Of a stretch of DNA of 46,228 nucleotides, positions 11,547 through 44,666 are shown in pieces. This stretch comes from a virus, in IMG/VR virus record IMGVR_UViG_3300048042_000046, positions 1 through 46,228 of that record; one strand, given 5' to 3'. Made by a program: the position numbers and the translations under genes. A model generated the notes under the pieces. That model was not told where the DNA came from, searched no databases, and saw only the letters and a list, made by a program, of their open reading frames with translations. The first letter of the stretch is position 1. Every line of letters starts with the position of its first letter.

Positions 11547-12239
11547 TTATATTGATGAATTCCGTTTTCTTTCATAATAAGCGTTAACAGAATCTCGTAA
11601 TTTTTGTCTATGTTCTAAAGTCTTAGGACCTTTAGTACTATTATTTGGTTTACCTAATTTAATAGCTCGTAATTTAGCTCTAATTTCTTCGGATACTATT
11701 TTTCCTTTATGTGCTGCTCCAACTTTTGCAGCATGCTCAAGAGATTTTGGTCTACCTTTTAGTTTTGATATAGTCTTTAATTTCTTTCCTTTTAATGGAC
11801 TAATATATCCATTTGCTCTTTTTAACATTTTTGTTTTTATAGTTTTAGCTATGGTTTCTGGGGATCTCGGTATACCTTTATATGGCGATGGCCCTCTATT
11901 TGGATATTTTATACCTTTATTGTTTGGTGGTTGATCACCACCTTCATGTTGATTATTAAGTATTCCTGTACCAAGATCTTTTCTTCCCCACCATTCTATA
12001 ATTCTACGTTCTAACGCTAATGCTCCTATTTCTGTGAGATTACTCTCTAGAATTATTATTTGATTGATATTTGATGGAAGTAAATCTATGCCATTTCTTC
12101 TTTTATGAGATTCCCATGCGCGTTCATTTTTGCCTTTACCTATATAATAAGGTGTACCAGCCTTAGCTGTGATTGAATCTTTACTTCTGATATATGCGTA
12201 TACATAATATCCTTGTGGATATTTGGAATAAATATTCAT
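11547..12239 (-). CDS. Free-standing GIY-YIG homing endonuclease with NUMOD3 motifs
   Basis: 230 residues. The GIY-YIG nuclease domain is at the N-terminus (YYVYAYIRSKDSI, then GTPYYIGKGKNERAWESHK, with the later catalytic Glu region). From about 105 onward come several NUMOD3-type DNA-binding repeats (PLKGKK, LKGRPKSLEHAAKVG, HKGKIVSEEIRAKLRAIKLG). Enzymes of this class cut related phage genomes that lack the gene and spread by repair copying. It lies antisense between a virion gene and a 92-aa gene and has its own structured leader (12240-12308), which is shared with the decayed GIY-YIG gene near 25 kb. It appears intact. Confidence 0.92.
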   Translation of the reverse strand: MNIYSKYPQGYYVYAYIRSKDSITAKAGTPYYIGKGKNERAWESHKRRNGIDLLPSNINQIIILESNLTEIGALALERRIIEWWGRKDLGTGILNNQHEGGDQPPNNKGIKYPNRGPSPYKGIPRSPETIAKTIKTKMLKRANGYISPLKGKKLKTISKLKGRPKSLEHAAKVGAAHKGKIVSEEIRAKLRAIKLGKPNNSTKGPKTLEHRQKLRDSVNAYYERKRNSSI

Positions 12240-12308
12240 GCTGTTGCTCCTAATAAGCTATAGAGCTAGTAGATGTTGATAGCATCGTGACTAGCATGAA
12301 TATTTATC
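12240..12308 (-). promoter_or_regulatory. Structured late leader of GIY-YIG gene (copy 1)
   Basis: Read on the minus strand: a GATAAATA late-type box (12308-12301), a stem-loop pairing CTAGT with ACTAG and GATG with CATC, then CTCTATAGCT, a variable base, and ATTAGGAGCAACAGCATG containing the ribosome site AGGAG. The same order occurs at 25246-25179, with a different but still pairing stem. Confidence 0.7.
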
Positions 12309-12317
12309 AAGGTTTAA

Positions 12318-12596
12318 ATGAAGCAATGGAATAAGATGCGATCAATATTACACGGACCAGAAGCGTTCCTACTTAAGAGTAAGAAACCCAGAATACAAGA
12401 ATTAGTTGCTAAAGCAACGAGTATGTCTGTTGAAGAGATTGAAAAACTTGATGAAAAAGCTGATATCAAACGTGGCTTAGTCAACATTAAAAAATCATTT
12501 GAACAAAATGCATCAGTATTTAGAGCAGAATTACTAGCTGATATGATGATTGCGAAGCATCATCCTGAATTCAATAGACAAACTATTAAAAACTAA
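12318..12596 (+). CDS. Small hypothetical protein
   Basis: 92 residues, highly charged and helical (IQELVAKATSMSVEEIEKL and DIKRGLVNIKKSFEQNAS). AAGG lies 7 bases before the ATG. It ends 12 bp before the nuclease gene and is probably its operon partner. No family recognised. Confidence 0.6.
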   Translation: MKQWNKMRSILHGPEAFLLKSKKPRIQELVAKATSMSVEEIEKLDEKADIKRGLVNIKKSFEQNASVFRAELLADMMIAKHHPEFNRQTIKN

Positions 12597-12608
12597 CTAT
12601 AATATTGC

Positions 12609-13277
12609 ATGTTAATAAATCCTCTTTACAATTATCAGAAGCTTACGCGAGAAGACGGCGGAGCAGATGGTAGAAAATACTTACTGTCAGATGGGAATAA
12701 AGTACCAAGTGTGACCACCATACTTTCGGCTACAAAAGATATGAAACATTTGCACGCTTGGCGAAAGCGAATAGGTGTTGATAAAGCTCAACAAATTACA
12801 ACAGAAAGCGCTAATTTAGGTACCACCGTTCACAATCATTTAGAATGTTATGCACTAGGTAAAGAACGTCCCGGTGGTAATAACTACGGACGCCTAATGG
12901 CTAAGCGTATGTCTGATGTTATTATTGATCAAGGTTTAATACACGTAGATGAAGTCTGGGGAGTAGAGGCCCAATTACATTTTGAAAATCTCTGGGCAGG
13001 GACGACAGATCTCTCAGGTTTGTTTAAAGGCAGATCGGCTATTATGGATTTCAAGAATACTATTAAGCCTAAGAAGCGAGAATGGGTAGAAGATTACCTA
13101 CTTCAGTTGAGCGCCTATATACTTTGTCATAATTGGATGTTCGATACAAATATTGAGCAAGGAGTTATTTTTATGGTTAGTCGTGATTGTGATTATCAAG
13201 AATTTATTATTCAAGGTGATGAGTTAGATCATTATAAACTTGAATGGATAAAACGAGTTGATAAATATTATCCATGA
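12609..13277 (+). CDS. PD-(D/E)XK-superfamily exonuclease
   Basis: 222 residues with the PDDEXK_1/MGME1-like order: PSVTTILSATKDM near the N-terminus, GTTVHNHLECY (helix with the first catalytic Glu), GTTDLSGLFKG (catalytic Asp region) and IMDFKNTIKPK (the D-x-K catalytic motif), followed by YLLQLSAYILCHNWMF (the usual Q-x3-Y helix). Such phage enzymes degrade or trim DNA ends in replication, recombination or host-DNA breakdown. It follows the 92-aa gene by 12 bp. A Cas4-like Fe-S version is unlikely because the cysteine cluster is absent. Confidence 0.85.
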   Translation: MLINPLYNYQKLTREDGGADGRKYLLSDGNKVPSVTTILSATKDMKHLHAWRKRIGVDKAQQITTESANLGTTVHNHLECYALGKERPGGNNYGRLMAKRMSDVIIDQGLIHVDEVWGVEAQLHFENLWAGTTDLSGLFKGRSAIMDFKNTIKPKKREWVEDYLLQLSAYILCHNWMFDTNIEQGVIFMVSRDCDYQEFIIQGDELDHYKLEWIKRVDKYYP

Positions 13278-13289
13278 GCCATAATATAC

Positions 13290-13307
13290 GCTAAATAATT
13301 ATTTAGC
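13290..13307 (+). promoter_or_regulatory. 18-bp perfect palindrome with late-type box
   Basis: GCTAAATAATTATTTAGC is a perfect palindrome just before the second GIY-YIG gene (start 13318). It contains CTAAATAA, close to the late box, on both strands. It could be a promoter, an operator or a 5' RNA hairpin. Ribosome site AAGG lies at 13308-13311. Confidence 0.45.
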
Positions 13308-13317
13308 AAGGTAATTA

Positions 13318-14178
13318 ATGTATTATGTATATGTACTCACAGATCCAATTAATAATTTACCATTTTATATAGGCGTCGGCAAAGAAAATAGAAAATCTGG
13401 CTGTGTTAGAGAAAAACAACATATCATTGATGCTATTAGATTAAGAGAAGGTAAGAAACTTCTACGACCAAATAGACATAAATTATACACTATATTGAAA
13501 ATATTAGATCAAAATTTAGAAGTTACGATTGATATAGTTGCAAAATTTGATAATGAAATAGATGCATTTATCGAAGAAATAAAATTAATAAAACAACATG
13601 GTAGATCAGATTTAGGACTTGGACCATTAACAAATTTAACTGATGGTGGCGAAGGAGGAGTTAATCCATCTATTGAAACAAGACTTAAACAATCATTATC
13701 TAAAAAAGGTAAACCAAGCCCACTAAAAGGTAGAACTGATCTTGGTCCATATACAGAAGAACGTTGCAAAAATATTTCTAAAGCAAACAAAGGCAGACCA
13801 AGTCCTTTAAAAGGTAAAAAAGGTAAACAAGCTTGGAATAAAGGATTAACTAAAGAAACAAGTGAAAATGTTGCAAAATATAGTGTATCGAATCCTAATA
13901 AAGGATTTAAAAAAGGTCATACAATAACTAAAAAGGGAACTAAATTAGTTAAAGATAAAAGTGGAAATAAATTTAGGGTTTCTATTAATGACGAAAGAAT
14001 TACCACCGGAGAATTAGAAGGTATACATAAAGGTAGGGTAGCTCATAATAAAGGGAAACCTGGTATACATAAAGGCAAAACATATGAGGAAATATATGGA
14101 CCTGAAAAAGCTGCCGAACTAAGAGAAAATAGACGATTAAGTAATTTAAGAAGATGGAATAAAATACTTAATCAGTAA
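13318..14178 (+). CDS. GIY-YIG homing endonuclease with NUMOD3 motifs
   Basis: 286 residues. The N-terminal nuclease domain (MYYVYVLTDPINNLPFYIGV, with VREKQHIIDAIR and later FDNEIDAFIEEIKLI) carries the GIY-YIG signature as YVYV and FYIGVG. From about residue 110 there are repeated NUMOD3 elements (GKPSPLKGR, KGRPSPLKGKKG, HKGRVAHNKGKPGIHKGK) that bind DNA. It is sense-oriented between the PD-(D/E)XK gene and a convergent SprT-like gene, whose end it overlaps by 11 bp. It differs clearly from the 11.5-kb copy and lacks its leader, so it arrived separately. Confidence 0.92.
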   Translation: MYYVYVLTDPINNLPFYIGVGKENRKSGCVREKQHIIDAIRLREGKKLLRPNRHKLYTILKILDQNLEVTIDIVAKFDNEIDAFIEEIKLIKQHGRSDLGLGPLTNLTDGGEGGVNPSIETRLKQSLSKKGKPSPLKGRTDLGPYTEERCKNISKANKGRPSPLKGKKGKQAWNKGLTKETSENVAKYSVSNPNKGFKKGHTITKKGTKLVKDKSGNKFRVSINDERITTGELEGIHKGRVAHNKGKPGIHKGKTYEEIYGPEKAAELRENRRLSNLRRWNKILNQ

Positions 14179-16251: not shown

Positions 16252-17391
16252 ATGACTACAATTACTCGTATATCTACATATAATCCAAAATTAGCAAACG
16301 CTACCAAACGATTGTTGTTAACAAATCCATTTGAATTATATAAAACTGAATTGCAACGGGTAGTTGATATATTGTTGTATCAAGACGATATACCTACATT
16401 TCTACCAACAGAATTTACGAAACAAATTAAATTTCCAGCAAGATTAAGTCAGGTATTAGCAAAGCAAGCAAGTTCAATTGTTAGATCAATACATTCTAAA
16501 ATTAATAAAGCAAATAAATCAACCAATAAAAAGAAATATCAAAAAGAACTACTTAATAAATTCAATGATAAAACATTGAATATTGAAATTAATAATTTTA
16601 GTATTGAGCTTGATTCAAGATTTATCGATATACAATTAAATAAAACTACTTCTTTGTGCGATCATTGGATTAAAATACGAATGTTTAATACAAAAACTTT
16701 CTTTATTCCAATGAAATTAACCAATCACATGAAAGATCTGATTTCTCGCGGATTTCAATTGAAAATTAATTCATTACGAATTAATAATAATGGAACAATT
16801 GGATTGTATTTCTATAAAGAACAAAAATTAAAAACAAGTATAAAATCAATTAGTATTGATATTGGTAGAAATAAATTAATAGTTGATAATAACAATAATC
16901 AAGAAACAACACATATAACTGGATTAAAAATAAAAGAGTTACTTGAGTTAATAAAGAAAAGAAAATCAAATAGTAAACAATTCAATAGAACAAGAAAACA
17001 AATAAAAGATCAAATAAATTACTCATTGAAACATGATATTGATTGGGATAATATTGATCAGTTGTTTATTGAAAAATTAACTGATATCAAGAGAAATAAA
17101 AAATGGGGTAAGAAAAATCAACATTGGTGTGTTGGTTATTTACTCAATAAAATAGAACAATTATCTGAAGAAAACGACGTTCGGCTAACTCAGGTAAATG
17201 CAGCATACACTTCACAAATATGTAGTATATGCGATTTTGTAGATAAAAACTCAAGAAATTATCAAGGGTTCTTATGTACAAATTGTGGAATAATGATGGA
17301 TGCAGATCATAATGCAGCTATTAATATCTACAACAGAGGAATAAATCGCTCCTTTGATTCAAAATGTAGAAGTGCGATAATAAATGGATAA
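16252..17391 (+). CDS. TnpB (IS200/IS605-type RNA-guided nuclease)
   Basis: 379 residues with the full RuvC set: Asp203 in SIDIGRNK, Glu274 in FIEKLTDIK, Asp352 in DADHNAAINI. It also has the four-cysteine zinc finger (CSICDF and LCTNCG) before the last motif. The N-terminal part is divergent, rich in Lys/Asn, and AT-rich even for this genome. TnpB proteins cut DNA guided by an RNA (omega RNA) made from the 3' end of their own gene, and this helps the element persist. No TnpA transposase lies nearby, so this copy may behave as a homing nuclease. It sits between tailspike and RNR genes and appears intact. Confidence 0.9.
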   Translation: MTTITRISTYNPKLANATKRLLLTNPFELYKTELQRVVDILLYQDDIPTFLPTEFTKQIKFPARLSQVLAKQASSIVRSIHSKINKANKSTNKKKYQKELLNKFNDKTLNIEINNFSIELDSRFIDIQLNKTTSLCDHWIKIRMFNTKTFFIPMKLTNHMKDLISRGFQLKINSLRINNNGTIGLYFYKEQKLKTSIKSISIDIGRNKLIVDNNNNQETTHITGLKIKELLELIKKRKSNSKQFNRTRKQIKDQINYSLKHDIDWDNIDQLFIEKLTDIKRNKKWGKKNQHWCVGYLLNKIEQLSEENDVRLTQVNAAYTSQICSICDFVDKNSRNYQGFLCTNCGIMMDADHNAAINIYNRGINRSFDSKCRSAIING

Positions 17392-25907: not shown

Positions 25908-27713
25908 ATGAAAAAAACTTTATCAGATGAAATTAAGAAGCTTACACCATACCAGCATGTACGTTTGCGTACAGAAACCTATTTTGGTAGTCGTAATCCT
26001 CATACTCAAACTGTAGTTAATTGGACAGGTAAAAAACTTGAACCAGTTGAGATGACTTGGACCCCCGCTGTTTATTGTGCTTTTAGAGAAATACTAGACA
26101 ACTCACTTGATGAAGTAGTTGTTAGGGGGTTTGGCGATACTATTGATATCACTTATAATCCAAAGACATTTGAATTCTCTGTAGCAGATAACGGCCGCGG
26201 CATTCCAATAGATTGGGACGAGAATGAACGTATGCATAAGGCGACGTTGGCTATGAGTCATCTGATGACAGGTCGTAACTTTGAAGAGCGTGGCGAATCT
26301 GGTGGCATGAATGGAATAGGAGCAAGCGGCGTTAATTTTTGTTCTGAATATTTTGATGTTATTATTCAACGAGACAACACACGATTCGAACAACTATTTC
26401 GTGAAGGTAGTGAAATGTTTGATGAACTTGATGTTCGTGCACCAAAATTGTCTAAAGGTGGAGCTAAGAGTGGAACTTACATTAGGTTCAAGCTTAGCAA
26501 TACTGTATTCAAGAGAATCAAATTGCCAATTGACTTTGTCACTGCTAGGATATTCGAGCTAGCTGCCAGTTATCCAAAATTGAAATTCAATTTCAATGGT
26601 AAACGACTAGTAGTTAAACCAACGATTGAGAAAACAATATTCTCTGACAGAGATGTTATCATCATTGATATCAATGATGCTAAATTTAAGAGCAAATACT
26701 ATCTAGTTCCTGAATTTGCTACTGAAGGTGAATATGTATATTCAACTGTTAATCGTATTCCGGCATTCAATGGTGGCGAACACATCGATACATTTAAACG
26801 GTTATTTTATAGTGGGTTGATTAAGTCACTTGACCGTGAAAATCGTCGACGAGGATTAATACCTAATAAGTCAGACATCGCTGAAGGTTTACTTATTTAC
26901 AATATTACATATATGGAGGATCCGAGTTTCGACGGCCAAACTAAATCGAGATTAGTAAATGACAATATAAATGTTTACATCAAAACTGTATTAGATGATG
27001 AGGAAACATTTAAGATTATTATTAAGCAAAATAAAGAATGGATAGATAAAATATATCAAAGGTGTTCTGACAGGACACAGAAGAAAGATGATGCTGAAGT
27101 AGCTAAACAGGGACGTAAATTACTGCGAACTAAAGTTCCAAAGTTACTTGATGCTAATGGAAAAGACCGTACAAAGTGCATACTGTTGATAACTGAAGGT
27201 GATTGCATTGCAGAACAAACACTTGTTAAAACTGTTATTGATGGAAAATTAATAGATACCAAAGCTAAAGATGTAAAAGTGGGTGATATTGTACTATCCC
27301 ATAGAAATAAACTGCAATTTGTAACAAATACAAGTAAAAAAGTTACTAAATCAATTGTAATTCAAACATCGGTAGGAGAAATACTTGTTGGCGAAAATCA
27401 TAGGTTGCTAACTTATAATAAAAAATACCAAAATTTTGACTATACTTTGGCTAAAGATTTAGATATATCTACACACCAACTAGTTAAAAATAGATATTCA
27501 GATATGTCCTTTATGCATTTGATATATCATATTGATATTGATATTGATAATATTCTACCAGTTAAAATATTATACGGAGATGAAACCAACTTGTATGTAA
27601 TTGATTCTACTATTGATCATTTGTTCGGGGTGTATAATACAGAAGAAATGTTATTTGAAAAAATTACGGCATCTGAATTAAAACCAAAAATTCATGCTCT
27701 TGTTATGGGATAA
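25908..27713 (+). CDS. DNA topoisomerase II large subunit, N-part, fused to split intein N-half
   Basis: 601 residues. Residues 1-432 are the GHKL ATPase and transducer part of a T4 gp39/GyrB-type subunit (FREILDNSLDEVV, VADNGRGIPI, GGMNGIGASGVNF, then TKSRLVND), ending in the TOPRIM start KCILLITEGD. At residue 433 the intein begins with catalytic Cys (CIAEQTLVKT, block A), has VGDIVLSHRN and block B (VGENHRLL) and ends at a stop after 169 residues. The matching C-half is 1.4 kb downstream. Protein splicing in trans should join EGD to the Ser of SAKSMVGAV. The enzyme, with the gp52-like subunit, relaxes or unlinks DNA in replication. Confidence 0.92.
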   Translation: MKKTLSDEIKKLTPYQHVRLRTETYFGSRNPHTQTVVNWTGKKLEPVEMTWTPAVYCAFREILDNSLDEVVVRGFGDTIDITYNPKTFEFSVADNGRGIPIDWDENERMHKATLAMSHLMTGRNFEERGESGGMNGIGASGVNFCSEYFDVIIQRDNTRFEQLFREGSEMFDELDVRAPKLSKGGAKSGTYIRFKLSNTVFKRIKLPIDFVTARIFELAASYPKLKFNFNGKRLVVKPTIEKTIFSDRDVIIIDINDAKFKSKYYLVPEFATEGEYVYSTVNRIPAFNGGEHIDTFKRLFYSGLIKSLDRENRRRGLIPNKSDIAEGLLIYNITYMEDPSFDGQTKSRLVNDNINVYIKTVLDDEETFKIIIKQNKEWIDKIYQRCSDRTQKKDDAEVAKQGRKLLRTKVPKLLDANGKDRTKCILLITEGDCIAEQTLVKTVIDGKLIDTKAKDVKVGDIVLSHRNKLQFVTNTSKKVTKSIVIQTSVGEILVGENHRLLTYNKKYQNFDYTLAKDLDISTHQLVKNRYSDMSFMHLIYHIDIDIDNILPVKILYGDETNLYVIDSTIDHLFGVYNTEEMLFEKITASELKPKIHALVMG

Positions 27714-27724
27714 CATCCTTCCGT

Positions 27725-27732
27725 TATAAATA
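27725..27732 (+). promoter_or_regulatory. Late promoter (TATAAATA) of the inserted endonuclease
   Basis: Exact TATAAATA between the IntN stop and the endonuclease start, followed by GAAGGATATTG before ATG 27757. It gives the nuclease an expression time different from the sigma70-driven topoisomerase gene. Confidence 0.7.
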
Positions 27733-27756
27733 GCGTACATTACTGAAGGATATTGA

Positions 27757-29070
27757 ATGTATACATTAACAAATACAAATACTTTATTTGGTATTAAATC
27801 AAATAATATTAATGATTATAAAAAATTATCAAAAGCTATTAAGATTCATTTAAAACGTAACAATATATCAGTTAACGACATATTATTACGTATCGGTATC
27901 AATCTATATAAATGTTCATGGTGCAATAATGATAATAACGCATATTATTTAATATGTGATATAGACAGTAATATGGTTACTATTAAAGGTATTGATTATA
28001 ATTTTCTTAATAAGCTTAAAGCTAAATTTGTTTGTCATTTACCAAAATGTGAATATCATAATCTTAATCCAAATAGTATAGATTTTATCAGCCGAGCATA
28101 TGGCGTATCAGAAGATGATGCAAAAATTTATCTACACAAACGAAGTAAAAGTCCTTTTTATAAAGAGAATCATATAGATCAAGCACAATATAAACTTACA
28201 CAATCTGTTTATAGTTTAACAGATAAATCTGCTGCTACAATTAAAGCTAACTTCAGCAGAAGTTTAGAAGGATACATCGATAGGTATGGGGAGGATTTGG
28301 GTACATCAAGGTGGTTAGATATTAATAAAAGAAAAATAAATTCTATTGATAATTATCAATTATCTGGATTGACAATCCAAGACTCAATTCAAAAATATAA
28401 TGATTGGATATTTAAAACTACATGTAGTAAAGAGTCATATATTCAAAAATATGGTAATTTTAATGGTCCAATAGAATATATCAAAAGACTAGCAAATTAT
28501 GCGGCTATATCAACTGATACAATATCAAATCAAACTGAAGTAGTAAAATTTATATCAGATAAAATTGAAAATGACCCCTTAAGTGTATGTATAGATTATC
28601 CATTGCAATCTAAATTAGATAATAATACATTAATTACCGAATTGATTAAAAAATATAATATAACGTATGAATTAATAGAAAATACATTAAAAAACAGAGG
28701 TTATGGATATAAATCATTAATAGGAAAAAAATTAGGAAAATTTGGCATTATGTCGTGGACTAAAGATGGTATATTATTACGATCATCAGCTGAATATAGG
28801 TTTTATCAAAAATTATTAACCTTGCATTTAGATAAATTGCATGTTAAAATAGATACATGGTATCCTTGTAAAAAATTTAAATTTGATTTTTTCTTCCCTG
28901 AATTAGAAATATATATTGAAATAGCTGGAATGTGTAATTTAGTATCATATAAACTACAATTAGAAAAGAAAATAACCCAATATAATTGTTTGGTAGCATA
29001 TAATTATTATGATCAAGACATTATTTTAGAAAAAGTACGATTAATTGCTATACAAAAAGGATTATTATAA
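27757..29070 (+). CDS. Vsr-like homing endonuclease between the intein halves
   Basis: 437 residues. The C-terminal about 110 have a Vsr/PD-(D/E)XK-type fold: a LLRSSAEYRFYQKLL helix, then YPCKKFKFDFFFPELEIYIE with the Asp and Glu catalytic acids. The N-terminal half has a CSWCNN...CHLPKCEYH zinc-like cluster and repeated RYGEDLGTSRW/KYGNFNGPIEY elements likely to bind DNA. This is the class of endonuclease described inside fractured, split-intein genes in environmental phage sequence (Dassa et al. type). It has its own late promoter, and its stop overlaps the IntC start (TAATG). It would copy itself into unsplit topoisomerase genes. Confidence 0.85.
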   Translation: MYTLTNTNTLFGIKSNNINDYKKLSKAIKIHLKRNNISVNDILLRIGINLYKCSWCNNDNNAYYLICDIDSNMVTIKGIDYNFLNKLKAKFVCHLPKCEYHNLNPNSIDFISRAYGVSEDDAKIYLHKRSKSPFYKENHIDQAQYKLTQSVYSLTDKSAATIKANFSRSLEGYIDRYGEDLGTSRWLDINKRKINSIDNYQLSGLTIQDSIQKYNDWIFKTTCSKESYIQKYGNFNGPIEYIKRLANYAAISTDTISNQTEVVKFISDKIENDPLSVCIDYPLQSKLDNNTLITELIKKYNITYELIENTLKNRGYGYKSLIGKKLGKFGIMSWTKDGILLRSSAEYRFYQKLLTLHLDKLHVKIDTWYPCKKFKFDFFFPELEIYIEIAGMCNLVSYKLQLEKKITQYNCLVAYNYYDQDIILEKVRLIAIQKGLL

Positions 29071-29804
29071 TGAATTTATTTGACGAATTAGATATGTCTG
29101 CAATAGAATTAATTGATATTGATTCAATTAAATCATATGGATATACAAATTGTATAGACTTGTCAGTTGATAATGATGAAACTTTTACATTTGGTAATGG
29201 TATTATTAGTCATAATAGTGCTAAGTCAATGGTAGGAGCAGTCAGAGACCCAGATATTCATGGTGCGCTACCATTGAGGGGTAAAATTCTAAATGTCAGT
29301 GGAGAATCTCTCAAGAACATAATTGATAATCAAATCATCGCTGATATAATGACAGCAGTTGGATTGATTCTAGGGCAACCTGCAAACCATGCTGATTTAC
29401 GTTATGGAAAAGTATATTTGGCGGCTGATCAAGATCCAGATGGTGCTAACATTACAGCATTGTTGATTAATTTCTTTCATTTACATTGGCCTGAATTGTT
29501 TTCTCCAGAGAAAGAACCATTCTTTTATTCGTTCCAAACTCCGTTTATTATTCAAGAGAAGGGTAAGACCAGACACTATTGGTATGCTCATAACTATAAT
29601 GAATATAAAGCAGAAGATTGGAAGAATTGCCCAAAGCCAACAAGAGCTAAAGGTCTTGGCAGTTTAGAAGAAGTAGATTGGGTTTATAGCATTAAGAATC
29701 CACAGTTAATACCATTTATCGACGATGATGGTCTTACTGAAGCACTCAGTCTTATTTTTTCGCATGCTCGTGCAGACGATCGCAAGACTTGGATCTCTCT
29801 TTAA
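29070..29804 (+). CDS. Split intein C-half fused to topoisomerase II large subunit C-part
   Basis: 244 residues. Residues 1-49 are IntC, ending with block F/G (SVDNDETFTFGNGIISHN). The extein starts at Ser (29217): SAKSMVGAVRDPDIHGALPL, then RGKILN, the TOPRIM continuation, with DQDPDG (the DxD metal site) in YLAADQDPDGANI and the rest of the GyrB-like core. Spliced length is about 627 residues, near T4 gp39 plus gp60. The last codons (HARADDRKTWISL) overlap an antisense endonuclease and appear to replace older ones preserved 1 kb further on. The ATG is coupled to the upstream nuclease by TAATG. Confidence 0.92.
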   Translation: MNLFDELDMSAIELIDIDSIKSYGYTNCIDLSVDNDETFTFGNGIISHNSAKSMVGAVRDPDIHGALPLRGKILNVSGESLKNIIDNQIIADIMTAVGLILGQPANHADLRYGKVYLAADQDPDGANITALLINFFHLHWPELFSPEKEPFFYSFQTPFIIQEKGKTRHYWYAHNYNEYKAEDWKNCPKPTRAKGLGSLEEVDWVYSIKNPQLIPFIDDDGLTEALSLIFSHARADDRKTWISL

Positions 29805-37611: not shown

Positions 37612-37639
37612 TTGACCTTTTGGCTATAGATGTTATTGT
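37612..37639 (+). promoter_or_regulatory. Early promoter of the pilin operon
   Basis: TTGACC, 16-bp spacer, TATTGT with TGTTATTGTA context. It precedes a run of co-directional genes (37685 to about 39563) that includes the two Flp-type pilins. Early expression of the pilins is therefore predicted. Confidence 0.8.
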
Positions 37640-37684
37640 ACTTTTATAGGCAGATAGCTGCTAACAACTAACAGAGAGTTTAAA

Positions 37685-37978
37685 ATGGCTTCCTCGAAAA
37701 TGGTTTCCAAGGTTGATATTATTGTGTCTGCCATTATTCAAGGTGACTTCTCCCTTGATGAGTTGCGCGTTATCAATAACGTGCTTAGGGTTGCTCACCG
37801 CAATAAAAGCGTGATAGCTACGCGCAATTTTGAAGCTGGTGAGACGGTTCAGTTTACAGGAAAGTCCGGAAGGATTTACACCGGCAAGGTGAAGAAGGTC
37901 AATATCAAGAACATCGTTGTTACGGTTTCTCCTACGGTTAGCTACAAGGTTCCGGCTGCGATGTTGCGTGCGGTGTAA
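37685..37978 (+). CDS. KOW-like small beta protein
   Basis: 97 residues. The first half is helical (SKVDIIVSAIIQGDFSLDEL, then RVINNVLRVAHRNKS); the second half has GETVQFTGKSGRIYTGKVKK followed by VNIKNIVVTV, an SH3/KOW-like barrel found in many T4-like phages. It may bind nucleic acid or the ribosome. Visibly higher GC than the 16-33 kb part. First gene after the promoter at 37612. Confidence 0.65.
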   Translation: MASSKMVSKVDIIVSAIIQGDFSLDELRVINNVLRVAHRNKSVIATRNFEAGETVQFTGKSGRIYTGKVKKVNIKNIVVTVSPTVSYKVPAAMLRAV

Positions 37979-38013
37979 TAAACAACTCACACTTTAAACA
38001 GAAAGTTTAAAAA

Positions 38014-38145
38014 ATGTATGACTCATTATATAGAATACTATATTACACTCTTTCGAACTGTCCTACCAATGAGCATCTGGCGATGCTTTTAACGGGCTTT
38101 GGAATTGTGGGCGTCTACGGCGTTTACAATTCAATTAGAAACTAA
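38014..38145 (+). CDS. Small membrane protein upstream of the pilins
   Basis: 43 residues: MYDSLYRILYYTLSNCPTNE, then a glycine-containing hydrophobic span LAMLLTGFGIVGVYGVYN. One probable transmembrane helix. It starts behind AGAAAG and ends 26 bases before the first pilin. Too short for family assignment; its position suggests it works with the pilins. Confidence 0.5.
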   Translation: MYDSLYRILYYTLSNCPTNEHLAMLLTGFGIVGVYGVYNSIRN

Positions 38146-38171
38146 TATCCCAATTCAATGGAGAATGGTCA

Positions 38172-38327
38172 ATGATTAAGAAGTTCATCAATAATAAGTC
38201 TGGTGCTACAGTGATCGAGTATGCACTCATTGTGGCAATTATGGCACTTGGTTTGATTGTAGTGCTGTCTAATCTCAGTGGGCATGTGAGCTCAGAGTTT
38301 TCGGAAGTCAGCGGAGTACTGAAATGA
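38172..38327 (+). CDS. Flp-type (type IVb) pilin 1
   Basis: 51 residues. The N-terminus is the Flp pilin hallmark: short basic leader MIKKFINNKSG, then ATVIEYALIVAIMALGLIVV, with Glu5 and Tyr6 of the mature protein in the Gly-x4-Glu-Tyr rule. A host prepilin peptidase would cut after Gly11. The hydrophobic helix is followed by a small C-terminal region (NLSGHVSSEFSEVSGVLK) as in Flp/Fap pilins, which are about 50-60 residues. GGAGAA lies 6 bases before the ATG. Its TGA overlaps the next ATG. No Tad secretion genes are nearby, so it should use the host machinery. Confidence 0.88.
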   Translation: MIKKFINNKSGATVIEYALIVAIMALGLIVVLSNLSGHVSSEFSEVSGVLK

Positions 38328-38494
38328 TTTCAGTAATTAAAAACTTCATCGACGATCAGTCTGGCGTAAGTGCCATTGAATATTCATTGATTGCTGGCGT
38401 ATGCATGGTGGCATTGGTTGTGGTTATCGACCACCTCGGACTACGTATGCATGGTGAATTCTTAGAAGTTACCAGCATCCTGCGATCAAAATAA
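38324..38494 (+). CDS. Flp-type (type IVb) pilin 2
   Basis: 56 residues, translationally coupled to pilin 1 (ATGA). Leader MISVIKNFIDDQSG, then VSAIEYSLIAGVCMVALVVV, again with Glu5 and Tyr6 after the cleaved Gly14. A Cys sits in the hydrophobic helix. The C-terminal part (DHLGLRMHGEFLEVTSILRS) differs from that of pilin 1 apart from a shared F(S/L)EV motif, so the two may be paired subunits or an old duplication. Probably assembled into, or blocking, the host Tad pilus. Confidence 0.88.
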   Translation: MISVIKNFIDDQSGVSAIEYSLIAGVCMVALVVVIDHLGLRMHGEFLEVTSILRSK

Positions 38495-38506
38495 CATAAG
38501 GCGATA

Positions 38507-38785
38507 ATGTTAATTTTTATTGTGAAATACGATATTGTCTGTGAGGATGGGCAGGTAATAACTGAATCGTCTTGGGTTGAGACCCTATCTACTCAAGATG
38601 AGGTTAAGGCTGCAGTATTAGCACATTATCGAAACAAAAACAATCAGATCAAAATTGACAACTTTGAGTTTATTGATGATGTGACCAAATTTATTAAGCT
38701 TGAGCATATATCTAATCATTCAAATCTTGAAGAGATATTAAAAAGACAGGAGATTAAACGTGCCGAAGACGCAATCAAAATTTGA
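38507..38785 (+). CDS. Small hypothetical protein
   Basis: 92 residues, 12 bases after pilin 2, behind AAGGCG. FIVKYDIVCEDGQVITESSW is strand-rich; the C-terminus is helical (NLEEILKRQEIKRAEDAIKI). Overlaps the next gene by 26 bases. A widespread early-region type in phages; function unknown. Confidence 0.6.
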   Translation: MLIFIVKYDIVCEDGQVITESSWVETLSTQDEVKAAVLAHYRNKNNQIKIDNFEFIDDVTKFIKLEHISNHSNLEEILKRQEIKRAEDAIKI

Positions 38786-39125
38786 ACAATTTCAGAAGAC
38801 TAACTCATACAATGAGTTAGTCCGGGATCGTAAATTAGATGAAGAGGGAATATGGCAGGTATATGGCGAAGATGCTAAAGATCTTGGGGGAAGTTATCAG
38901 CCTCCATTTTTGGGATTGTTTTCGGGCAAGCTTATTGATGTGATATGTTATGCAGTTGAGCTTCCTCGATTCTGGGAATGGGGTCCCGGCGGCGCCATCA
39001 AAAAGCTCGGTGAGCCAATACCAATTACGGCAGAAAGTGTCCGTGAACGGACCAACGATCTAGAGCAAATTGAGCAATTGACGATGAAGCTTGAGGCTCT
39101 CAAAAAGAAGAATGGTATCCGATGA
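38760..39125 (+). CDS. Hypothetical protein (GTG start)
   Basis: 121 residues. Starts at GTG 38760 behind AGGAG, inside the end of the preceding gene. The middle has QVYGEDAKDLGGSYQPPFLG and FWEWGPGGAIKKLGEPIPIT, a conserved-looking aromatic/Gly region. C-terminal coiled coil (DLEQIEQLTMKLEALKKKN). Not recognised. ATGA overlap with the next gene. Confidence 0.6.
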   Translation: MPKTQSKFEQFQKTNSYNELVRDRKLDEEGIWQVYGEDAKDLGGSYQPPFLGLFSGKLIDVICYAVELPRFWEWGPGGAIKKLGEPIPITAESVRERTNDLEQIEQLTMKLEALKKKNGIR

Positions 39126-43183: not shown

Positions 43184-43399
43184 ATGAAACAGATTAAGTA
43201 TTCTCGTAAACAAAAGTTGCGTATTACCCAAAATGGTGTTATAGTTTATACTACAATTGGTCAACTTGATAAAGTATTTGGTGATCATAGAAGTATAGCA
43301 GCGACGAATTGTGCATTGCGTGATTTAAGTGAATTTGGTGGTAAGAACATATCATTGATATATGGTGGTCATCCCGTTAATGTTGAGTTGTTAGATTAA
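43184..43399 (+). CDS. Small hypothetical protein
   Basis: 71 residues from the ATG at 43184 (GAAAGAA upstream); a longer reading from 43109 would lie inside the preceding gene. KQIKYSRKQKLRITQNGVIV, then TTIGQLDKVFGDHRSIAATN. Stop overlaps the ATG of the first family member at 43399 (TAATG). Confidence 0.55.
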   Translation: MKQIKYSRKQKLRITQNGVIVYTTIGQLDKVFGDHRSIAATNCALRDLSEFGGKNISLIYGGHPVNVELLD

Positions 43400-43698
43400 T
43401 GGAACCTACTTACAATGAAGTAGATAATAGACTCAATGCTGCCAGATTGATAGAGTATATTAATCAACAGTCTGTTATATTCACAATTCAGTATGATGAT
43501 GATATAGATCGAGCTACAAAATGGTGTTATGAAAATGTTGGTGATGAACGCATGACACATCCGATGTATGAATGTGCTGACGGAGCACTTGATTTTTTTG
43601 AAGGTGATTGGGCACAAACTGCTATCGGTATTCAAGAATATTCTTTTTGGTTTTCTAAAAAAACCCATAGAATTCAATTTAAACTAATTTGGTGTTAA
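43399..43698 (+). CDS. Paralogue family member A
   Basis: 99 residues. LIEYINQQSVIFTIQYDDDI, WCYENVG, then THPMYECADGALDFFEGDWA and FWFSKKTHRIQFKLIWC. These blocks (W-C, HP-x4-(E), FEGDWA, FWF, F-x-L-x-W) recur in the next three genes. Starts as TAATG with the gene before and is directly abutted by the next. Function unknown. Confidence 0.7.
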   Translation: MEPTYNEVDNRLNAARLIEYINQQSVIFTIQYDDDIDRATKWCYENVGDERMTHPMYECADGALDFFEGDWAQTAIGIQEYSFWFSKKTHRIQFKLIWC

Positions 43699-44028
43699 AT
43701 GCCTCTATCTCTTTATAATGCGCGCTCTGACCGTGAAAAAGCTTATGATTATAAGCAATTATTGGAGACTATTATTAATCAGAGTGTAAGAATGCCTAAG
43801 GTAGGGAAGTTTAATCTTACTACTGTAGTGCAATGGTGTAAAGTAGAGTGTGGAGCAGTTCGTAAAATTCATCCAATTTACCAAATTGAAATACCGACAT
43901 TACGTAATAATGGCAATAGAGGAAATTGGGCATACACTATCAATGATGATGACCATGTTACTTTTTGGTTTAAAAAATACGAACACCAATACTTGTTTAA
44001 GATAACGTGGGCAAATGGTAAATTCTAA
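43699..44028 (+). CDS. Paralogue family member B
   Basis: 109 residues, starting immediately after member A. QWCKVECGAVRKIHPIYQIE, then RGNWAYTINDDDHVTFWFKK and FKITWANGKF. Most diverged member: GDWA has become GNWA, and the FEG turn is lost. Function unknown. Confidence 0.65.
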   Translation: MPLSLYNARSDREKAYDYKQLLETIINQSVRMPKVGKFNLTTVVQWCKVECGAVRKIHPIYQIEIPTLRNNGNRGNWAYTINDDDHVTFWFKKYEHQYLFKITWANGKF

Positions 44029-44048
44029 TTAAATCAGATTGGACCCTA

Positions 44049-44342
44049 ATGCGTGATGTAGTTCATAGGGAAAGATTGATTCGATTGATCAGGTCTCAAT
44101 CTGTGGTGTTTGATCCGATTAAGCATAATACGAGTCCAGTAGTAGTAATTAATTGGTGTAAAGAGCGCCTTGGCCTAATGCGGCCTCGTCATCCTCTTTT
44201 TGAGGCGTATGATGGTTGGATTGATTATTTTGATGGTGATTGGGCTTGTACTTGGAACGCACCAGGATATGATGCATCAATTTGGTTGTTCTGGTTTCAT
44301 AATGAAAACGACATGGTTGAATTTAAATTATGTTGGTTATAG
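44049..44342 (+). CDS. Paralogue family member C
   Basis: 97 residues. INWCKERLGLMRPRHPLFEA, YFDGDWACTWNAPGYDASIW and FWFHNENDMVEFKLCWL match the family blocks. GATTGGACCCTA precedes the ATG, a leader-like string seen before other starts in this region (GATTGGACC at 36161). Function unknown. Confidence 0.7.
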   Translation: MRDVVHRERLIRLIRSQSVVFDPIKHNTSPVVVINWCKERLGLMRPRHPLFEAYDGWIDYFDGDWACTWNAPGYDASIWLFWFHNENDMVEFKLCWL

Positions 44343-44345
44343 AAA

Positions 44346-44666
44346 ATGACAAGTAAGAATTTTCCAAGAAAAATTAACGCCGATAAATATAGAAAAGTTG
44401 TTGATAAACATTGTATTCATTTTTATGAACCTATTAAACATATACTATATATTAATGAAATGGAACAGTATTGTTTAGCTAATTTTGGAGAACCGAGAAG
44501 TAAACATCCATTAGATGAAGTTATACATGGCTATGTAAGTAACTTTGAAGGTGATTGGGCAGTACAATGGATCTACTCTAACATTACCGGTTCTGGTTCT
44601 AACGTATTCTGGTTTAAAAATCGAGAAGATAAAATGTTGTTTAATTTAACTTTTTTTGATGGTTGA
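44346..44666 (+). CDS. Paralogue family member D
   Basis: 106 residues, 3 bases after member C. INEMEQYCLANFGEPRSKHP, NFEGDWAVQWIYSNITG and FWFKNREDKMLFNLTFF keep the family blocks. More AT-rich than the other three. Its stop overlaps the next promoter. Function unknown. Confidence 0.7.
   Translation: MTSKNFPRKINADKYRKVVDKHCIHFYEPIKHILYINEMEQYCLANFGEPRSKHPLDEVIHGYVSNFEGDWAVQWIYSNITGSGSNVFWFKNREDKMLFNLTFFDG

Follow-up and report, generated by a model that had tools for sequence, protein, structure and literature searches.

A tailed-phage contig from IMG/VR was found to carry two short genes of the Flp pilin family, and the evidence supports their description as coupled paralogs that sit among phage genes and follow a promoter of a phage family. 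The window, i.e., the whole stretch of DNA that was analyzed, is the complete record of 46,228 bp. It is conceivable that a large tailed phage here makes two assembly-competent Flp prepilins that would be cleaved by the host and co-assembled into its Tad pili, limiting superinfection, a reading that we favor tentatively and judge slightly more apt to be wrong than right.

Two overlapping Flp prepilin genes

Pilin 1 (positions 38172 to 38327, + strand) encodes 51 aa with a predicted cut after Gly11, MIKKFINNKSG/ATVIEYALIVAIMALGLIVVLSNLSGHVSSEFSEVSGVLK (slash, predicted cleavage site), and a mature protein of 40 aa. Pilin 2 (38324 to 38494, + strand) encodes 56 aa with a predicted cut after Gly14, MISVIKNFIDDQSG/VSAIEYSLIAGVCMVALVVVIDHLGLRMHGEFLEVTSILRSK, and a mature protein of 42 aa, and its start codon overlaps the stop codon of pilin 1 in the sequence ATGA. 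These are exactly the coordinates and frames of the preliminary description of this DNA, which had proposed two ATGA-coupled frames of 51 and 56 codons. It had also read in them the Flp prepilin rule of a leader, a glycine, a Glu-Tyr pair and a hydrophobic helix, and both proteins keep it. The cleavage sites lie in the contexts KSG/ATVIEY and QSG/VSAIEY, placing Glu5 and Tyr6 in each mature protein, and the leader is short and basic in pilin 1 and weakly basic in pilin 2. The helix and the mature lengths agree with the roughly 40–60 residues expected of Flp/Fap proteins.

Membership of both ORFs in the Flp family is secure at the sequence level, with profile matches far better than chance would give. 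Both pass the curated threshold of 32.2 bits for the Pfam family Flp_Fap (PF04964), pilin 1 with 50.6 bits (E 1.7e-13) and pilin 2 with 37.2 bits (E 2.5e-9), so a lack of similarity to Flp profiles, which would have told against the earlier proposal, was not what the search returned. When the whole record was scanned for Flp_Fap, the two pilins were the sole matches. An NCBIfam search gave no Flp match for them, and a PHROGs search gave no corresponding family. In a phmmer search of the PDB, predicted mature pilin 1 aligned without gaps from residue 1 of two Caulobacter PilA filament structures, 8U1K (E 0.03) and 8U2B (E 0.1), weak values for a very short query of 51 aa.

The pair resembles Flp/Fap (Tad, type IVb/IVc) major pilins such as PilA in the leader ending in glycine, the Glu5-Tyr6 pair, the hydrophobic helix and the Phe32 region; the mature phage proteins are slightly shorter than mature PilA, which has 45 aa (PMC11067988). 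Unlike host Flp/Fap pilins, they are encoded by a tailed phage as two coupled copies, share at most 50% identity with host proteins, combine Glu31 with Glu34, and have no adjoining tad locus; TadE had no match in the 46,228-bp record, and no tad gene was seen within the window. Neighboring tad/cpa assembly genes are usual for pilin genes in hosts and do not define the Flp/Fap protein family.

Phage context and promoter

The window encodes baseplate-wedge and virion structural families and a tail-lysozyme-like domain, together with a B12-type ribonucleotide reductase (RNR) and topoisomerase II. Because the topoisomerase subunit is closest to those of Sinorhizobium phage Phosso (469 kb, 55%) and Agrobacterium phage Atu_ph07 (490 kb, 50%), the source is likely a jumbo-type phage of an alphaproteobacterium. 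A contig from a different metagenome, L050, is essentially identical to the window over about 17.1–25.2 kb and ends short of the pilins; this identity indicates that the phage population is real.

Structural genes, the topoisomerase and tilS are common to the window and to the lake-type contigs G001, G003 and G004, and counterparts of the small co-directional genes from 35 to 46 kb are absent from those three. Flp was likewise absent from Phosso and Atu_ph07, from six topoisomerase-related contigs and from 50 RNR-related contigs, many of which are fragmentary, and the pair was found in no other IMG/VR record. The presence of the pair in related phages, proposed beforehand as a check along with purifying selection, was therefore not borne out among the relatives examined, whereas an unrelated lineage shows apparent selection of this kind on its Flp gene (see below).

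A promoter-like site reported earlier at 37612 is indeed present (37612 to 37639, + strand; TTGACC-N16-TATTGT, with TG preceding the -10) and belongs to a motif family far above chance. Matches to TTGAC-N12..15-TGnTAnnnT number 11 on the + strand and zero on the - strand, as compared with a mean of 0.86 and a maximum of 3 in first-order Markov simulations. Most copies sit closely 5′ of a gene; the copy at 37612 heads the run from 37685 to 38494, and the family recurs both upstream and downstream of the pilin pair. The operon had been called early, and the host-type promoter and the region of small genes agree with that label, though “early” itself is deduced from promoter type and position.

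All genes around the pair are on the + strand. A 97-aa ORF without a significant family (37685 to 37978) comes first after the promoter, followed by the 43-aa single-span protein that had been reported to precede the pilins; this ORF exists (38014 to 38145), with one predicted membrane span and no family match. On the 3′ side, a 92-aa ORF (38507 to 38785; weak PHROG match, 0.0038) is probably on the same transcript, and a 121-aa phage protein of phrog_33851 (38760 to 39125; 1.1e-15), with homologs in Rhizobium, Acinetobacter and Caulobacter phages, marks phage context downstream. As a separate observation, a leader resembling AACAGARAGTTTAAA lies right before the ATG of two successive genes (37665–37687 and 37996–38016) and may serve both in translation or regulation.

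Elsewhere in the window, several GIY-YIG-like homing endonuclease ORFs break up the structural region at 11547–14178, including those at 11547–12239 (-) and 13318–14178 (+). A TnpB-like ORF of the IS200/IS605 type (16252–17391) lies between structural and replication genes and has a counterpart with 50% identity in the related contig G001 (L135). Homology to the topoisomerase large subunit is split at 25908–29804, where relatives match 25908–27713 and then 29070–29804, and the gap holds intein- or endonuclease-like sequence. Finally, four consecutive ORFs of 97–109 aa at 43399–44666 resemble tandem paralogs with common HPxxE and FWFxNxxDxxxFxLxW-type motifs.

Relation to host pilins and to Flp genes in other phages

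Both pilins were compared with 117 host pilins drawn from a 385-genome sample (the class of an alphaproteobacterial MAG), plasmid records and further ones taken by place. As this sample was picked by similarity to the phage pilins, the contrast is conservative for identity; other bacterial classes fall outside it. Over 38 mature residues, pilin 1 reaches an identity of 0.50 with its nearest host protein and pilin 2 one of 0.42, against a median nearest-neighbor identity of 0.79 among hosts. Isolation as great as that of pilin 1 is seen in only three of the 117 hosts, and as great as that of pilin 2 in none. In a tree of 94 pilins over 45 columns the phage proteins stay unplaced, with long branches and most forks weak. 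The two share the leader IK[KN]FI[ND][ND][KQ]SG and an EFxEV block, which suggests that they arose by tandem duplication; dS between them is saturated. Their GC content of 0.42 is similar to that of neighboring genes. An unusual C-terminal charge was considered and dropped, since both pilins carry -1, inside the host range.

Despite this divergence, both pilins preserve Gly-1, Glu5, Tyr6 and, further downstream, Phe32. In PilA, the hydrogen-bond core of the Tad pilus is made up of Glu19 and Tyr20 (mature 5 and 6), which are required for assembly and not for processing (PMC11067988), and their retention in both phage proteins favors assembly-competent pilins rather than inert decoys. Both pilins also carry Glu at mature positions 31 and 34, a combination found in 0/117 hosts; Asp or Glu occurs at position 31 in 0/117 and Glu at position 34 in 9/117. 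The contacts of phage phiCb5 on PilA include residues 43, 48 and 51, equivalent to mature 29, 34 and 37, so that mature 34 corresponds to the contact Lys48, and the pilin of strain NA1000, with four differences including 43 and 51, is hardly bound by phiCb5 (PMC11067988). The two glutamates would fit an altered receptor face, a lead drawn from two probable paralogs and perhaps from one event.

Phage-borne Flp genes are recurrent and occur in unrelated phages. All three members of a T4-like IMG/VR lineage (G449, 183 kb; G450; G451) carry an Flp gene (L273:7998–8150, L277:7992–8147) and a TadE gene (L288:6782–7225, L277:9079–9495), and G449 encodes tail sheath, portal, terminase and DNA polymerase. 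Their Flp proteins reach or exceed the cut-off with 32.4 and 36.1 bits, and the genome search of G449 and G450 gave 31.0, just below it. Between G449 and G451, dN/dS is about 0.06 (NG86), with dS near saturation, and 29 of 43 differences fall at third codon positions; this Flp is apparently under purifying selection. These phages are like the window in being large tailed phages with an Flp-family pilin; unlike it, they have a single Flp of another sequence type together with TadE, and they are not closely related to it. A further candidate lies right after terminase and portal-like genes in marine-type contigs from three metagenomes (L370–L372; L371:3001–3246); at 30.5 bits it is just below the cut-off, matching only in its N-terminal half and being longer in its C-terminal part.

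Canonical Flp genes were found beside terminase or portal genes (L010:5470, L029:4056, L264:8001–8141), between DNA polymerase and primase/helicase genes (L018:12518) and near an integrase (L006), and L022 has one weak TadE match at its Flp gene. The idea that such contigs are host flanks was rejected, as no CpaA-D-like gene is nearby and terminase, portal or replication genes adjoin Flp in several of them; others are doubtful. In L010, L029, L264 and L018 the Flp gene is on the strand opposite to the adjoining phage genes, resembling independently transcribed cargo (“moron”) genes.

A tblastn search with pilin 1 gave a weak match among phages (MT836441, E 2) and 91 records among plasmids. With a canonical host Flp it gave zero against phages and also zero against plasmids, which voids the phage result, the query probably having been low-complexity-masked, and leaves the pilin 1 search as the informative one; the G449 Flp had no match among phages in a search that lacked a positive control. 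None of the diverged phage Flp proteins tested has a matching family in PHROGs v4, which shows that pilin genes of about 50 residues slip past phage catalogs.

Possible roles at the host pilus

Phages such as phiCb5 and phiCbK enter through Tad pili, which are widespread among Alphaproteobacteria. If the phage prepilins are made, the host prepilin peptidase would cut them after the glycine, and the products would enter the pool of pilins in the membrane and be built into the Tad pilus together with host subunits. Once incorporated, they would alter the pilus surface through the two glutamates at mature 31 and 34, or else the way in which the pilus extends and retracts; the phage would profit by excluding competing pilus-dependent phages or by changing the infected cell's surface state. 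We infer each of these elements, namely host, timing, processing, co-assembly, pilus effect and benefit, and exclusion through pili is proposed from family membership and precedents. An altered pilin alone can suffice, since the pilA stop60L mutant from a phiCb5-resistance screen is retraction-deficient (PMC13170226). Pilus-based exclusion is a known phage strategy from PfsE of Pf phage, which switches off type IV pili and keeps superinfecting phages out (PMC8764522). As unrelated big phages carry similar pilin genes, phages probably tamper with pili that serve other phages for entry. The broader scenario, in which Flp, in some cases along with TadE, was captured independently by several unrelated large phages that co-polymerize it into the host pilus, remodeling the receptor surface or freezing retraction, is possible but rather doubtful. 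Against co-assembly, the pair is dispensable for the phage group, given that it is missing from all related phages examined; exclusion is also less profitable to a soon-lysing virulent phage than to a prophage, and host pilins are in excess, so that a minor phage share might lack effect.

Other explanations account for part of this evidence. The prepilins could act as dominant-negative competitors, occupying the peptidase or the pilin pool or poisoning the growing filament and leaving fewer pili, whether or not they become part of a functional filament; a short substrate that costs little, encoded twice after a consensus-like promoter and with the cleavage site intact in both, would suit this. 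Glu5 and Tyr6, however, are dispensable for processing (PMC11067988) and their retention at high divergence points to assembly; we judge competition rather unlikely. The same residues would suit a phage that sustains or re-establishes piliation of its host in the course of infection, so that infected cells can attach to surfaces or spread, as would the presence of the TadE minor-pilin family in addition to Flp in the T4-like phages, yet the window has no TadE match, its pilins are diverged and not host-like, and a virulent phage has no obvious advantage in supplying them; we regard this as distinctly improbable. It is somewhat easier to imagine, though still improbable, that Flp-derived proteins were repurposed for the inner membrane, outside pili, in lysis timing or in blocking injection. 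The pilins are short and single-span on very long branches, and their neighbor at 38014–38145 is likewise single-span, but leader, Gly-1, Glu5, Tyr6 and Phe32 are kept in both.

The absence of the pair in relatives and the variable region of small genes would also be expected of a recent acquisition without benefit to the phage. Such passive cargo is very unlikely, considering that both frames are intact and above the family cut-off, that the genes are duplicated and too strongly diverged from hosts to be recent, and that Flp recurs in unrelated phages with a low dN/dS in one. Least credible of all is a chimeric assembly or host contamination of the metagenomic contig, despite its being a single contig, the pair occurring in no further record and L050 covering only about 17.1–25.2 kb. 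Phage-type genes and the same promoter family flank the pair, gene packing and GC match the surroundings, no tad gene adjoins, and the pilins are unlike any sampled host pilin. Contamination is unlikely and was discarded on divergence, phage context and promoters.

Tailed phages with an Flp gene have precedents in Vibrio harveyi prophages phi345 and phiGANI1709, where it was read as an adhesion virulence factor (PMC12482185), and in phiLM21-like prophages of S. meliloti, where it appears in a table (PMC12429752). Unlike these temperate prophages, with Flp as cargo or virulence factor, the phage of the window is of jumbo type, and its two diverged tandem genes follow an early-type promoter. A literature search, with most subscription papers outside its coverage, returned no Flp pilin in a virulent or jumbo phage and no use of the phrase “phage-encoded pilin” or of similar wording. 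Prophage Flp as cargo is already known; new is that a jumbo-type phage has Flp as a diverged, coupled pair, a finding with independent parallels in other phages. The proposed purpose is that of PfsE, keeping out pilus-dependent phages by way of the pilus, whereas PfsE, which is not itself a pilin, binds the platform protein PilC of type IVa pili (PMC8764522) and the window proteins are Tad-type pilins with a proposed effect. PfsE acts on the machine; the target of a phage-supplied pilin would be the filament, receptor and moving part at once.
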